Shown piece after piece: positions 1,671 to 31,368 of a stretch of 64,000 nucleotides of DNA; the first letter of the stretch is position 1; every line of letters starts with the position of its first letter. The position numbers and the translations under genes were made by a program. This DNA comes from an uncultured Poribacteria bacterium. GTDB lineage: Bacteria; Poribacteria; WGA-4E; WGA-3G. The DNA lies in contig OX639973.1 of NCBI GenBank assembly GCA_951828385.1, forward strand, positions 1,302,001-1,366,000, read 5' to 3'. Below the pieces are notes generated by a model that was not told where the DNA came from, searched no databases, and saw only the letters and a program-made list of their open reading frames with translations.

Positions 1671-2084
1671 ATGAAATTAGAAACACCTATTTTAACATAT
1701 CAAACGACGCGGTCTGCTACATACGCCTGTGAGTACCATATCATCTGGTGTACAAAATACACAAGAAGTGTCTTGTCTTCTGACATTCAAGAACGCTTCA
1801 AAGAACTTGTCATAGAATCAGAAGAAAAACACGGATTTACGGTTCGTGCTTTAGAGACAATGACAGACCACATACATTTGTTGATTAGCATTCCTCCAAC
1901 TCAAGCCGTTGGTGTAATGATTGGCAAACTCAAAGCAATGACGGCTCAAGTTCTTCGTGAGGAGTTTCCGCACCTAAAATCAAGACTGCCGAACTTATGG
2001 ACACGTTCCTATTTTGTAGCGTCTACAGGGGGTGTAACACTACAAGTTCTAAAAGAATATGTAGAAAACCAGAAAGGTGTCTAA
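1671..2084 (+). CDS. tnpA: IS200/IS605 family HUH transposase TnpA
   Basis: 137 aa from the ATG at 1671. YHIIWCTKYTRSVL near the N-terminus and TDHIHLLISIPP are hallmarks of IS200-type Y1 transposases; HIH is the HUH metal-binding motif, and the Tyr in VLKEYVENQ near the C-terminus is the expected catalytic residue. Family knowledge: it acts as a dimer on single-stranded element ends, cutting beside the subterminal hairpins. The stop codon is directly followed by the tnpB ATG (TAAATG), so the two genes are translationally coupled. All catalytic residues look intact, so the element may still be active. Confidence 0.92.
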   Translation: MKLETPILTYQTTRSATYACEYHIIWCTKYTRSVLSSDIQERFKELVIESEEKHGFTVRALETMTDHIHLLISIPPTQAVGVMIGKLKAMTAQVLREEFPHLKSRLPNLWTRSYFVASTGGVTLQVLKEYVENQKGV

Positions 2085-3323
2085 ATGCCAAGTTTCTACC
2101 GCACCCAAACCCTGAAAATAGAAGCACAACCGATATTCTCTGAAGCCCATGCTGCGTCTGCTGCTCTTTGGAATGGTTGCTGCTTTGAAATGGATATGTA
2201 CCAGTGGCAGCGCGGGTATCCTCACGCTCACAGAGACTTCTATTTCGGTAAAGACTGCGAAGGCTGGATAGACCGAAAACTCTCTCATCCACTCTTGCAT
2301 TCCCAAAGTCGGCAAGCGGTTCGGGAGCGTTACTTCAAGTCTTGGTTGTCCTACTCTGCTGTGAAAAAATCGGGTGGCGTTAGAAAGCCGAAACCTCCTA
2401 ACAAACGAAAAAACTATATGACGACCCGTTGGAAAAAGTCTGCCATTCGTTTTGTAGAAGGTAGCCTCTTTGGTAAACGTGTTGAACTTTCTATGGCACA
2501 GGGTCAACCGAAAATAGAGATACCTTTGCCCAACAACTTTGATATGTCTAAAGCAGAACATATCGCAACGATTGATTTGTGCTATAACTACGGACACTGG
2601 ACACTCCATTTTTCGTATGTGTATCACACCGAAACACCTGAAACCGGTAAAGAAGTTGTAGGCGTTGATATAGGCGAAATACACCCGATTGTCTCTCACG
2701 ACGGTCAAGACACACATATCTACAATGGACGGTATATCCGCTCACTATACCGCTATAGAAACAAAGTGCTTGCCGATTTCAGTCAGACGATGAGTCGGTG
2801 TAAACGCCATTCCAAACGCTGGTGGCGACTCACCCGTCGGAAGTGGAAGCGTATTAGAAAGATTGATAACCAAATCAAAGACGCCCTCCACAAACAGACC
2901 ACTAAGTTCGTCAAATACTGCCAAGCAAAAGGTATTGGTACAATAATACTCGGAGACCTCACAGGTATCCGAAACAACATAGATTACGGAAAAAAGACGA
3001 ACCAGAAACTCCACCAGTGGGCTTTTGGTAAGATTGCCGAGTTGATAACCTACAAAGCGAAAGCGTTAGGTATCAAAGTCAAAGTCATTGACGAATCCTA
3101 TACCTCTCAAACTTGTCCGAAATGTGGCAACCGAAAGAAACCGAACAATCGCAACTATACCTGTAAATGTGGTTTCCAATATCACCGCGACGGTGTCGGT
3201 GCGATCAATATCAGAGAAAAGTATCTGGGTCACTTCGGTGTCCCCGTAGTGGCGGAAATGGGTTTTCCCCGTATGACACCGCCCTTGGGCTTTCGCTTGG
3301 AAGTCCCTGTTGCCTCGTCTTAG
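2085..3323 (+). CDS. tnpB: TnpB, RNA-guided nuclease of the IS605 element, with altered RuvC-II
   Basis: 412 aa. RuvC-I is VVGVDIGEIHP (Asp195); the zinc ribbon is CPKCG (344, 347) with CKCG (360, 362); RuvC-III is YHRDGVGAINI (Asp369). The RuvC-II site reads TIILGDLTGIR, so Gly290 sits where most TnpBs have the catalytic Glu. Family knowledge: TnpB uses an omega RNA from the element's right end to cut target DNA. A nearby acidic residue, Glu337 in VIDESYTSQTCP, could replace the missing Glu, since rearranged RuvC-II sites are known in some TnpB lineages; that is inference. Three hairpins follow the stop codon and may form part of the omega RNA. Confidence 0.9.
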   Translation: MPSFYRTQTLKIEAQPIFSEAHAASAALWNGCCFEMDMYQWQRGYPHAHRDFYFGKDCEGWIDRKLSHPLLHSQSRQAVRERYFKSWLSYSAVKKSGGVRKPKPPNKRKNYMTTRWKKSAIRFVEGSLFGKRVELSMAQGQPKIEIPLPNNFDMSKAEHIATIDLCYNYGHWTLHFSYVYHTETPETGKEVVGVDIGEIHPIVSHDGQDTHIYNGRYIRSLYRYRNKVLADFSQTMSRCKRHSKRWWRLTRRKWKRIRKIDNQIKDALHKQTTKFVKYCQAKGIGTIILGDLTGIRNNIDYGKKTNQKLHQWAFGKIAELITYKAKALGIKVKVIDESYTSQTCPKCGNRKKPNNRNYTCKCGFQYHRDGVGAINIREKYLGHFGVPVVAEMGFPRMTPPLGFRLEVPVASS

Positions 3324-29145: not shown

Positions 29146-29217
29146 GTTGTCAGTACTCAGTACGATTTTTCTGCGAAAAATCTTTCAGTACTCAACTCAG
29201 TTAAGAGGTACTTTGAT
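29146..29217. repeat. Left half of a GTTGTCAGT palindromic repeat cut by an IS element
   Basis: AGTTGTCAGTACTCAGTACG, the GATTTTT-CTGCG-AAAAATC mini-hairpin, and GTTAAGAGGTACTTTGAT end at the IS element. The mirrored right half resumes at 30757. Confidence 0.7.
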
Positions 29218-29322
29218 TAATCACATTTCTGTTTCACCTACGTTTCGGTTTGGAAGCCCAAGTCTTTAGACTTGGGAGGAAAAACCGCCTTAGTGAATTA
29301 GGCCCAACGGTTGAAAAAAGAT

Positions 29323-29351
29323 TTGACATTGGATTAAAAAAGTAGTATGAT
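29323..29351 (+). promoter_or_regulatory. tnpB promoter of the second IS element
   Basis: TTGACA (29323-29328) and TATGAT (29346-29351) are 17 nt apart. The AGATTTGACATT block and the ACCGCC, TGAATTAG stretch before it match the left end of the first IS element. Confidence 0.8.
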
Positions 29352-29356
29352 GATAG

Positions 29357-29443
29357 TATCAGGTTGGCAAGTCTAACAAGCGTAACCGCAAGGTTGCGGA
29401 CTTGCCTCCCACTTGTTAGGGGATAAAATCCTGATACCTGATA
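29357..29443 (+). ncRNA. Pseudoknotted RNA leader of tnpB
   Basis: The predicted transcript begins at about 29357. GGCAAGTC (29366-29373) pairs with GACTTGCC (29399-29406); CTAACAAG (29373-29380) pairs with CTTGTTAG (29412-29419) in pseudoknot fashion; CCGCA/TGCGG (29386-29390 with 29395-29399) makes an inner hairpin; TATCAGG (29357-29363) can close the whole with CCTGATA (29430-29436 or 29437-29443). The order of stems is that of HDV-like ribozymes, but the catalytic core was not established. The only SD-like run, AGGGG, is 26 nt from the ATG and inside the fold, so it may control translation. Confidence 0.55.
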
Positions 29444-29447
29444 ATCC

Positions 29448-30755
29448 ATGAATATAACTTTTAGGTGCCCTGTGTATCCGACACAAACACAGGAACAAAC
29501 ATTATTAGGGTGGTTAGACCACCTTTGTGAACTTCAGAACTCTGCTCGCCATGATCGCAAGGTTGCGTGGGAGACTGAAGGTGAACGGGTGTCTTGCTAC
29601 GCTCAGCAACAGAAGTTGACAGTGGCTCGTAAAAAATATGCCGACTTCCGTGAAGTGCCCCAAGATATGCAAGTGTGTATTTTGGAACGCACGGACAAAG
29701 CTTACGACGGTTTCTATAGCCGGTGCGAAGCCGGTGCTGCGAAAAAAGGCTATCCAAGACACCATAAACGGATTAGGTCTATGTCGTGGAAACTTCGCAA
29801 ATATCCGAAAGTTGTTCAGCGAAAGACAAAAGACAGAGAGAAAAAAGTTGTAAAAGTTCGCCAGACGCCTATCCGTGAAACAGCATGGAAACACGACCGA
29901 CTCAAAGTGCCGGGTTTAGGTGAAGTCAAGATATACATGCCCCGCCCGTTAGAAGGCGATCCGAAAGAAGTGTCGCTGGTAAAAAAAGCGAGTGGCTGGT
30001 ATGCTCATATCTCCTGTGAACTGCCCGATACACCGAAAGTTGAACCGACCCATGCGATTGCTGTTGATGTAGGCACAACGCACTATCTCACAACTTCCGA
30101 TGGTGAAAAAGAGGACAACCCGCGCTGGTATCGCCAAGCAGAAGGTCGGACCCGGAAACACGCGAGAGACCTGTCTCGTAAGAAAACAGGTAGCCACCGT
30201 AGAAAGAAACAACAACAGAAACTCGCTTTACACCATGAGCGAACCGTCAATAAACGCCAAGACTTTATCGGCAAACTCGTCTATAAACTCTACCACCACC
30301 AGAAAAACAATGTATTAGTGGCAGAGAACTTACGCGTATCTAACATGGTAAAGAACCAACACCTCAGCAAGAGTATCAGCGATGCGTCTTGGGCAACCTT
30401 CTTTAAGTGGTGTGCGGACATAGCCGAAAGAGACGGTCTGCACTTCCATCAAGTTGACCCCAAGCATACCTCGCAAACATGTTCTTGCTGTGGTCAGAAG
30501 TCGGCAAAGAAACTTTCGCTGGCGATCCGAACTTTTAGCTGTCAGTTTTGTGGCACGGTTTTAGACCGAGACCACAACGCTGCGATAAATATACTTCTTA
30601 GGGCAGCTGCTGCCCTTCGTGGAGAGCGGTGGGTTACCACCCTCGAAGAAACGAGAAACAAGAACGAAGCACGAGACAAAGGCTTGCAGAACGCAACACA
30701 GTTAACGTTGTTTGACGCTCTTAACAAGCCCAAGTCTTTAGGCTTGGGTAGTTGA
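29448..30755 (+). CDS. tnpB: TnpB, RNA-guided nuclease (second IS element)
   Basis: 435 aa. MNITFRCPVYPTQTQEQTLL is the typical N-terminus. RuvC-I is AIAVDVGTTHYLT, RuvC-II VLVAENLRVSNM keeps the catalytic Glu, the zinc ribbon is CSCCG with CQFCG, and RuvC-III is LDRDHNAAINIL. All catalytic residues are therefore present, unlike the TnpB at 2.1 kb, from which it differs greatly. Its last codons (KSLGLGS) lie inside the right-end hairpin, so the coding end and the probable omega RNA overlap. No ribosome site stands at a normal distance from the ATG. Confidence 0.9.
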   Translation: MNITFRCPVYPTQTQEQTLLGWLDHLCELQNSARHDRKVAWETEGERVSCYAQQQKLTVARKKYADFREVPQDMQVCILERTDKAYDGFYSRCEAGAAKKGYPRHHKRIRSMSWKLRKYPKVVQRKTKDREKKVVKVRQTPIRETAWKHDRLKVPGLGEVKIYMPRPLEGDPKEVSLVKKASGWYAHISCELPDTPKVEPTHAIAVDVGTTHYLTTSDGEKEDNPRWYRQAEGRTRKHARDLSRKKTGSHRRKKQQQKLALHHERTVNKRQDFIGKLVYKLYHHQKNNVLVAENLRVSNMVKNQHLSKSISDASWATFFKWCADIAERDGLHFHQVDPKHTSQTCSCCGQKSAKKLSLAIRTFSCQFCGTVLDRDHNAAINILLRAAAALRGERWVTTLEETRNKNEARDKGLQNATQLTLFDALNKPKSLGLGS

Positions 30756-30756
30756 C

Positions 30757-30838
30757 GGACTACTGATAACTGATAACCAACAACTGAGTACTGACAACTA
30801 AAAGGTTTTCGTAGAAAACCGTACTGAAAACTATCAAA
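30757..30838. repeat. Right half of the IS-interrupted GTTGTCAGT repeat
   Basis: ACTGATAACTGATAACCAAC, CTGAGTACTGACAACT, then GGTTTTCGTAGAAAACC and GTACTGAAAACT mirror the left half at 29.15 kb. It ends 2 nt before the pyrE ATG and fills the place of a ribosome site. Confidence 0.7.
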
Positions 30839-30840
30839 TA

Positions 30841-31368
30841 ATGACAAAAACAGAACTCGCAAAACAGATTCGTGAGGCTTCGTATCTCACGGGTGAATTC
30901 AAACTCCGTTCAGGGAATATTAGTAATTTCTACTGGGATAAATACCGATTCGAGAGTGACCCCGCCCTGCTTACCGCAATCGCCGAAGAGATGGCGAAAT
31001 TGCTCCCGTCGGGTTGTGATGGGTTGGCGGGTCTGGAATTAGGCGGCATCCCGCTCGCAACAGCACTTTCGCTGCAAACAGGAATCCCGTGCTTCTACGT
31101 CCGTAAAGAAGCGAAAACTTATGGCACCTGTAATCTTATAGAGGGCGGTGTTAAGACGGATAGCAGACTTGTTGTGATAGAAGATGTGATTACGACAGCG
31201 GGACAGGTCTGCACATCGATTGAGCAGATTCGCGCAGAGGGGTACACAGTGGAACATGTTGTAGCGGTCATTGATCGGCAAGCAGGCGGTGAAGCAAAAA
31301 TTAAGGAACTCGGATGTTCATTCGCATCCGTTTTCACGCTCACAGCGTTAGAAGCAATCAGGTTATAG
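30841..31368 (+). CDS. pyrE: Orotate phosphoribosyltransferase
   Basis: 175 aa. The N-terminus has FKLRSGNISNFYWDKYRFES, the orotate-side loop, then GLELGGIPLATALSLQTGIP, FYVRKEAKTYGT (flexible catalytic loop with the RKE and K residues) and VVIEDVITTAGQ, the PRPP-binding motif. Family knowledge: it transfers ribose-5-phosphate from PRPP to orotate in pyrimidine synthesis; it acts as a dimer in the cytoplasm. The ATG directly follows a palindromic repeat without a Shine-Dalgarno sequence. No other pyr gene is near, apart from the partial amidohydrolase far upstream. Confidence 0.92.
   Translation: MTKTELAKQIREASYLTGEFKLRSGNISNFYWDKYRFESDPALLTAIAEEMAKLLPSGCDGLAGLELGGIPLATALSLQTGIPCFYVRKEAKTYGTCNLIEGGVKTDSRLVVIEDVITTAGQVCTSIEQIRAEGYTVEHVVAVIDRQAGGEAKIKELGCSFASVFTLTALEAIRL

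Follow-up and report, generated by a model that had tools for sequence, protein, structure and literature searches.

A covarying pseudoknot domain at the predicted 5' end of solitary tnpB transcripts and of ORF-less elements in Poribacteria

Results

The tnpB element and its leader

In the window (the whole 64,000-nt stretch of DNA that was analysed), the LE and RE hairpins that enclose tnpB mark an IS200/IS605-type element, and this element has no tnpA. Based on this layout the element was assigned to the IS200/IS605 family (IS1341-type) with a solitary tnpB. The features of the locus are as follows.

29246–29287, + strand: LE hairpin of the IS200/IS605-type element, CCCAAGTC TTTA GACTTGGG within CGGTTT/AAACCG (from the sequence)
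29323–29328, + strand: −35 box TTGACA (from the sequence), conserved upstream of related leaders
29346–29351, + strand: −10 box TATGAT (TATAAT in most copies), with transcription predicted to start at 29357–29358
29357–29363, + strand: 5' strand of P0, TATCAGG, at the predicted RNA 5' end, covarying with two 3' copies
29366–29373 / 29399–29406, + strand: P1, GGCAAGTC / GACTTGCC (from the sequence and alignments A1 and A2)
29374–29380 / 29412–29418, + strand: crossing helix P2, TAACAAG / CTTGTTA, left out of the search model and covarying in A2
29381–29387 / 29392–29398, + strand: hairpin P3, CGTAACC GCAA GGTTGCG, with a tetraloop, covarying in A1 and A2
29407–29410 / 29420–29423, + strand: P4, TCCC / GGGA, around the 3' strand of P2 (A1 and A2; independently confirmed in the ORF-less class)
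29430–29436, + strand: P0' copy 1, CCTGATA, covarying in A1 and A2
29437–29443, + strand: P0' copy 2, CCTGATA, 4 nt before the start codon
29448–30755, + strand: tnpB, RNA-guided endonuclease TnpB family, 435 aa (NCBIfam NF040570, guided_TnpB, 251 bits; Pfam PF07282 and PF01385)
30729–30748, + strand: RE hairpin CCCAAGTCTTTAGGCTTGGG (from the sequence)

The LE hairpin recurs upstream of other copies, with a different sequence. The two promoter boxes are separated by 17 nt, and in 51 of 58 copies the best −10 match lay at −11 to −6 relative to the first P0 base. The pseudoknot leader spans the interval from the predicted transcription start to the tnpB start codon (ATG at 29448) and would form the first ~90 nt of the RNA. 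A tnpA-tnpB (IS605-type) element elsewhere in the window (about 1698–3218, + strand; matches G000:C1:1303698 and 1304133) served as a contrast, as its tnpA is SD-led and the pseudoknot is absent.

The initial annotation had drawn a pseudoknot at this position. Its P1 and crossing helix were recovered exactly as drawn, apart from an eighth P2 pair that would have to share C29373 with P1, and TATCAGG can indeed be closed by either of the two CCTGATA copies. The inner hairpin that it gave as CCGCA/TGCGG proved to be an out-of-register version of the conserved P3, in which 6/7 pairs change on both sides in A2. The SD-like AGGGG that it placed within the fold is present, but its 3' end lies 25 nt upstream of the ATG, and the final three G's are part of P4. 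That helix had been missed; because it flanks the 3' side of P2, the latter becomes a loop-loop interaction. A descriptor covering the P1-P2-P3-P1'-P2' topology gave the leader a score of 22, a value reached by none of 1500 dinucleotide shuffles (26 gave any match, the best 18.5), and no other place in the 64-kb window, on either strand, scored above 18.

Covariation of the helices

The leader DNA had 31 matches in its own genome. Alignment A1 comprises 12 clean leaders hand-picked from these (11 distinct rows); 99.1% of its pair cells were paired, a percentage that the selection favours, and both sides had changed in 18 of 32 pairs. Alignment A2 was built from the best-scoring loci and comprises 58 leaders (58/58 loci fetched; 54 distinct rows), of which 98.4% of the pair cells were paired and 28 of 32 pairs had changed on both sides. 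The latter number compares with 14.3 in shuffled alignments and 13 or fewer when the structure was slid along the alignment; the pair-count shuffles do not keep relatedness, and rows within one genus are not independent.

P0, P1, P3 and P4 are built into the search models, so that only P2 and copy 2 provide independent tests there. P2 was 98.7% paired in A2, with 6/7 pairs changed on both sides. P4 was 95.7% paired, with 3/3 pairs changed on both sides and variants in different copies such as UCUC/GAGA, UCCU/AGGA and ACCC/GGGU. Read on the tnpB strand, A2 held 53 G-U cells versus 5 A-C cells, which indicates that the tnpB strand is the structured one. The suggestion that the leader is a functional structured RNA was strongly borne out by this covariation among homologues, and the alignments argue strongly that the pseudoknot is real.

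Individual copies vary. The descriptor recovered the fold in 20 of a set of 30 loci; P1 was broken in L006, L012, L014, L017 and L024, no match was obtained in L015, L022, L029 or L030 either, and a weak match in L023 was spurious. In L056 (the same as L012), L059, L017, L024, L014 and L006, P1 shows a recurrent replacement of CA by AAACC, or of TG by GGTTT on the other arm, the replacements falling on one or the other strand. P1 is longer and fully paired in L057 and L060. A palindromic insert of ~26 nt, of the CCCCTTCCGAGTAACGGGCGGGG type, occupies the P3 loop of L049–L053 (also of L014, L016 and L020), and the LE of L011 holds a similar sequence.

The order of the helices, P1-P2-P3-P3'-P1'-P2', is that of HDV-like ribozymes, as had been pointed out in the initial annotation; membership beyond this topology found no support. 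HDV-like ribozymes contain a P1.1 helix between L3 and J1.1/4 and an unpaired catalytic cytosine in J4/2. Here, no P1.1 partner was found in L3, a loop with 12 different tetraloop sequences and about 26 extra nt in 5/54 rows, and the J letters pair as P4 instead. A free catalytic cytosine was not evident, as the J cytosines form P4 and covary. The long P3 (7 bp) with its variable loop, the placement of P4 around the 3' strand of P2, and the two partners of P0 also differ from those ribozymes, and the first pair of P1 is an invariant G-C in 54/54 rows. Rfam HDV models matched nothing at gathering score in the window and nothing at E≤10 in 29200–30850. Cleavage in front of GGCAAGTC would release the P0' copies beside the start codon and shorten the RNA by only ~9 nt at its predicted 5' end. 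We give self-cleavage of the HDV type almost no credence, and the pseudoknot is probably not a self-cutting ribozyme.

No known Rfam family matched the pseudoknot at gathering score. Weak matches below that threshold (Afu_190 snoRNA, HEARO on the other strand of RE, and HgcC) were set aside. IS605-orfB-I (RF03065), the Rfam family linked by name with these genes in excerpts of PMC11701678, had no match in the window.

Two alternative partners for P0

P0 has retained its complementarity to both of the tandem copies on its 3' side. In 35 of the 54 A2 rows, copy 1 and copy 2 can each pair with the full seven letters of P0, and the variable letters of P0 change jointly with both copies (TATCAGG, TATCAAG, TATCACG, TATCGTG, TATCGCA, TATCTCG and TATCCGT). 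The exceptions in copy 2 are 1–3 mismatches in several rows; leader L169 and the ORF-less copy L204 have a single P0' copy. The predicted energies of the two closures, calculated with P2 left out, were −32.8 and −33.4 kcal/mol. The doubled P0' hints at a switch, and the domain may be bistable.

One possible role is translational control: by switching P0 from one copy to the other, the pseudoknot would gate a tnpB start codon that lacks an SD, and would either keep TnpB low or respond to the binding of a factor, for example TnpB. The fold stops 4 nt before the ATG in most copies, and its two closures lie within 0.6 kcal/mol of each other. An SD-like 4-mer at −17 to −4 was found in 0/57 leaders (one row without a start codon was left out), compared with 9/9 tnpA leaders before tnpB, 19/36 window ORFs and 4/36 random places. 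In addition, L378, a locus with a differently spelled pseudoknot (descriptor score 23), has two P0' copies, one of which contains the tnpB ATG. No conserved upstream ORF was seen by eye in the leaders of two copies.

Distribution and partner genes

A covariance model built from 12 leaders with P2 left out found 41 copies in the own genome. Model R2 gave 698 matches, with rough E-values, in 51 of the 84 Candidatus Poribacteria genomes: all 38 genomes of the own genus, 8/18 of g12 and 5/6 of g5, and none in the other 18 genera (3/21 genera in all). A second class, in g5 genomes, has the same layout in quite different letters (P0 GTCTTTC with GAAAGACAGAAAGAC, P1 GTGGGAGA). Another pseudoknot spelling, with P1 TGGTAGAGA, was observed in L175, L180, L185 and L193 (genome G052) and in L378. 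Elsewhere in the own genome, a leader-like promoter and partial pseudoknot sequence (L030, G000:C1:6087115) lie shortly before a catalase/peroxidase gene, possibly as a co-opted remnant.

The descriptor was also applied to viral contigs, where 75 of 80 tnpB upstream regions were scanned (five were too near a contig end). Two matches of at least 17 in the 75 regions compared with five in 225 shuffles, so that the pseudoknot was rejected as a general tnpB feature, and these viral-contig regions gave no sign of the leader outside Poribacteria. The window TnpB, used as a query, had no relative in the viral contigs.

In the own genome, 38 of 56 tnpB matches have a class I leader upstream, nine lie behind tnpA without a leader, none has both, and nine have neither. 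The tnpA-tnpB elements have the same kind of LE and promoter, and the pseudoknot is absent from them (0/9). Five of the nine tnpB genes with neither follow an ORF with a Resolvase domain, the arrangement of IS607 elements; L381 looks alike. The others are a chimera (L354), a gene cut off from its LE (L379) and L378. Three further class I matches have no tnpB behind them.

Among the TnpB proteins encoded behind the leader, identity to that of the first row of the alignment falls to 22–28%, and tnpB of L041 is 95% identical to the window copy where its pseudoknot is only 69% identical. Together, these comparisons make the 5' part look like a module exchanged between elements.

ORF-less elements

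Loci L197–L204 and L206 consist of an LE, a promoter, a pseudoknot in a third spelling, ~270 nt without an ORF, and an RE; L205 has this body in common with them, with LE and pseudoknot missing. This class III was present in 35 of 38 genomes of the own genus. Among 30 fetched ORF-less loci the descriptor found the pseudoknot in 29, and none had a tnpB-like ORF close downstream. ORFs do lie near some of the loci; the seven proteins checked were host genes or unassigned, and none was TnpB. Many of the ORF-less elements read ACCACT where tnpB leaders read ACCATG. L330 and L333 are also ORF-less and have a different noncoding body behind the same kind of 5' pseudoknot.

Alignment A6 comprises 36 of the best-scoring ORF-less loci (L332 was left out beside L331, as were L199, at the same place as L307, and L206, a duplicate of L203). 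Of its pair cells 96.7% were paired, with P4 at 93.8%; P2, again outside the model, was 99.2% paired with 5/7 pairs changed on both sides. At least two P0' copies were present in 31/36 rows (two in 30, three in one), one in four rows and none in one. In ORF-less loci such as L324, L328 and L329, sequence directly 3' of copy 2 duplicates part of P0 and is able to pair with copy 2, which may add a fourth strand. In 34/36 rows the region 3' of copy 2 held a hairpin with at least 4 Watson-Crick pairs, a count made without a shuffled control.

In 20 of the 58 tnpB or leader loci searched, the sequence that follows the tnpB stop codon is homologous, over up to 109 nt, to the 3' end of the ORF-less body (of these 20, L083 no longer has a tnpB and the L080 match is at a contig edge). 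Based on their position and this homology, we infer that the ORF-less bodies are guide RNAs.

The ORF-less elements bear directly on translational control. There, compensatory change has preserved the fold, P4 and the doubled P0', in many cases with ACCACT in place of a start codon, and fold retention without an ORF means that control of translation alone is not enough. We consider this reading possible but doubtful.

Alternatively, the fold could act at the level of DNA, with the folded single-stranded top strand recognised in peel-and-paste transposition by a Y1 transposase, TnpA acting in trans. Such a role would agree with the restriction of the fold to elements without their own tnpA and with its retention in ORF-less mobile elements, and a folded top strand would also be expected to favour G-T over A-C. 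However, the tnpA-tnpB elements have the same kind of LE and promoter and do without the fold, which is thus probably not needed for transposition as such, and the extent of the fold is that of an RNA leader, from the predicted start of transcription, at a fixed spacing to the −10 box, up to the start codon. A DNA-level structure is in our view improbable.

A metabolite-binding riboswitch built on the P0/P1/P4 junction has in its favour some conserved unpaired letters of the tnpB class, UU before P1 and UAAA after P4. The second and ORF-less classes keep the pairing but not these letters, and there is no Rfam match. A small-molecule pocket was rejected as the junction letters differ between classes, and we hold a riboswitch to be very improbable.

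Discussion

Comparison with known systems

According to excerpts of PMC8612924, the guide RNA of ISDra2 TnpB derives from the tnpB 3' end together with the RE, and according to excerpts of PMC10278001, TnpB cuts its own mRNA to produce it. The leader would share a transcript with such a guide RNA (reRNA/omegaRNA), and the ORF-less elements join it to a 3' stretch homologous to that behind tnpB. The guide RNA described in those excerpts is 3' of and overlaps tnpB and ends in RE and flank, whereas the pseudoknot domain is 5'. The initial suggestion that the leader might be part of a guide RNA was thus wrong for the tnpB elements and nearer the mark for the ORF-less ones, in which the fold heads a transcript that would end in that 3' region.

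The nearest known parallel is the Salmonella IS200 tnpA leader (5'tnpA RNA), described in excerpts of PMC12594629 as a stable structured RNA with a hidden ribosome-binding site. Both are structured 5' parts of IS200/IS605-family transcripts. The IS200 leader of those excerpts is a long stem-loop before tnpA, while here a multi-helix pseudoknot precedes tnpB or no ORF; there is no SD to hide, and tnpA elements of the own genome have no pseudoknot. A search of the open-licence PMC literature found no paper on a tnpB leader pseudoknot, and the RNA structure is apparently undescribed. A nested leader pseudoknot beside a start codon is also present in the E. coli alpha-operon mRNA, where it is bound by ribosomal protein S4. 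The position beside the start codon is similar; in contrast, the fold described here gave no sign of a protein ligand and is also kept without a start codon.

Role of the domain

The computation established the fold, which strand forms it, where it lies, how far it has spread and that it is retained in the absence of an ORF. For its role, the explanation that we favour, tentatively and at somewhat less than even confidence, is that of a possibly bistable 5'-terminal domain that stabilises and insulates TnpA-less transcripts. Transcribed from the element's internal TTGACA/TATAAT promoter, this RNA domain would fold as the transcript emerges from the polymerase, with P0 fixing the extreme 5' end and with P1 (P3 on top) and P4 as two arms whose loops are joined through P2. 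The carriers are IS200/IS605-type elements without their own tnpA, i.e., solitary tnpB and ORF-less elements, the transcripts of which would be poorly translated, or not translated, near their start. The domain would protect and insulate their 5' ends and thereby keep the long RNA intact as a source of the 3' guide RNA. In tnpA-tnpB elements, this protection would instead come from a ribosome at the SD site beside the 5' end. The choice of P0 between copy 1 and copy 2, of near-equal predicted energy, would in addition alter access to the start codon in tnpB elements.

A protective domain fits best because the carriers share a 5' end without an SD-bound ribosome and a putative 3' guide RNA. Several observations sit uneasily with it. 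A simple hairpin would guard a 5' end, and stability alone does not explain the elaborate fold or the two P0' copies. The ORF-less elements may keep the domain for a function in trans, and the tnpA-tnpB elements presumably need a guide RNA too, yet do without the domain. P1 is broken in some copies, and L169 and L204 have one P0' copy.

A bolder proposal, which we think rather unlikely, is that the ORF-less elements are a new class of mobile RNA genes, with a 5' pseudoknot and a guide-RNA-like 3' end, that spread with TnpA and TnpB as helpers. Through the exchange of P0 between copy 1 and copy 2, the 5' domain would then be a shared bistable module steering the fate of both the tnpB mRNA and the stand-alone guide RNA.

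TnpB and its guide RNA are the ancestors of Cas12 systems, and to our knowledge little is known of RNA control in solitary tnpB elements that lack a transposase. If the protective reading is right, the RNA family that these elements carry has no Rfam 15 match and unusually clean covariation, and it ties an intricate pseudoknot to the very transcripts that would carry TnpB and its guide RNA. The ORF-less elements are a natural experiment in which the fold stays after gene loss, and the alternative partners of P0 make a switch directly testable.
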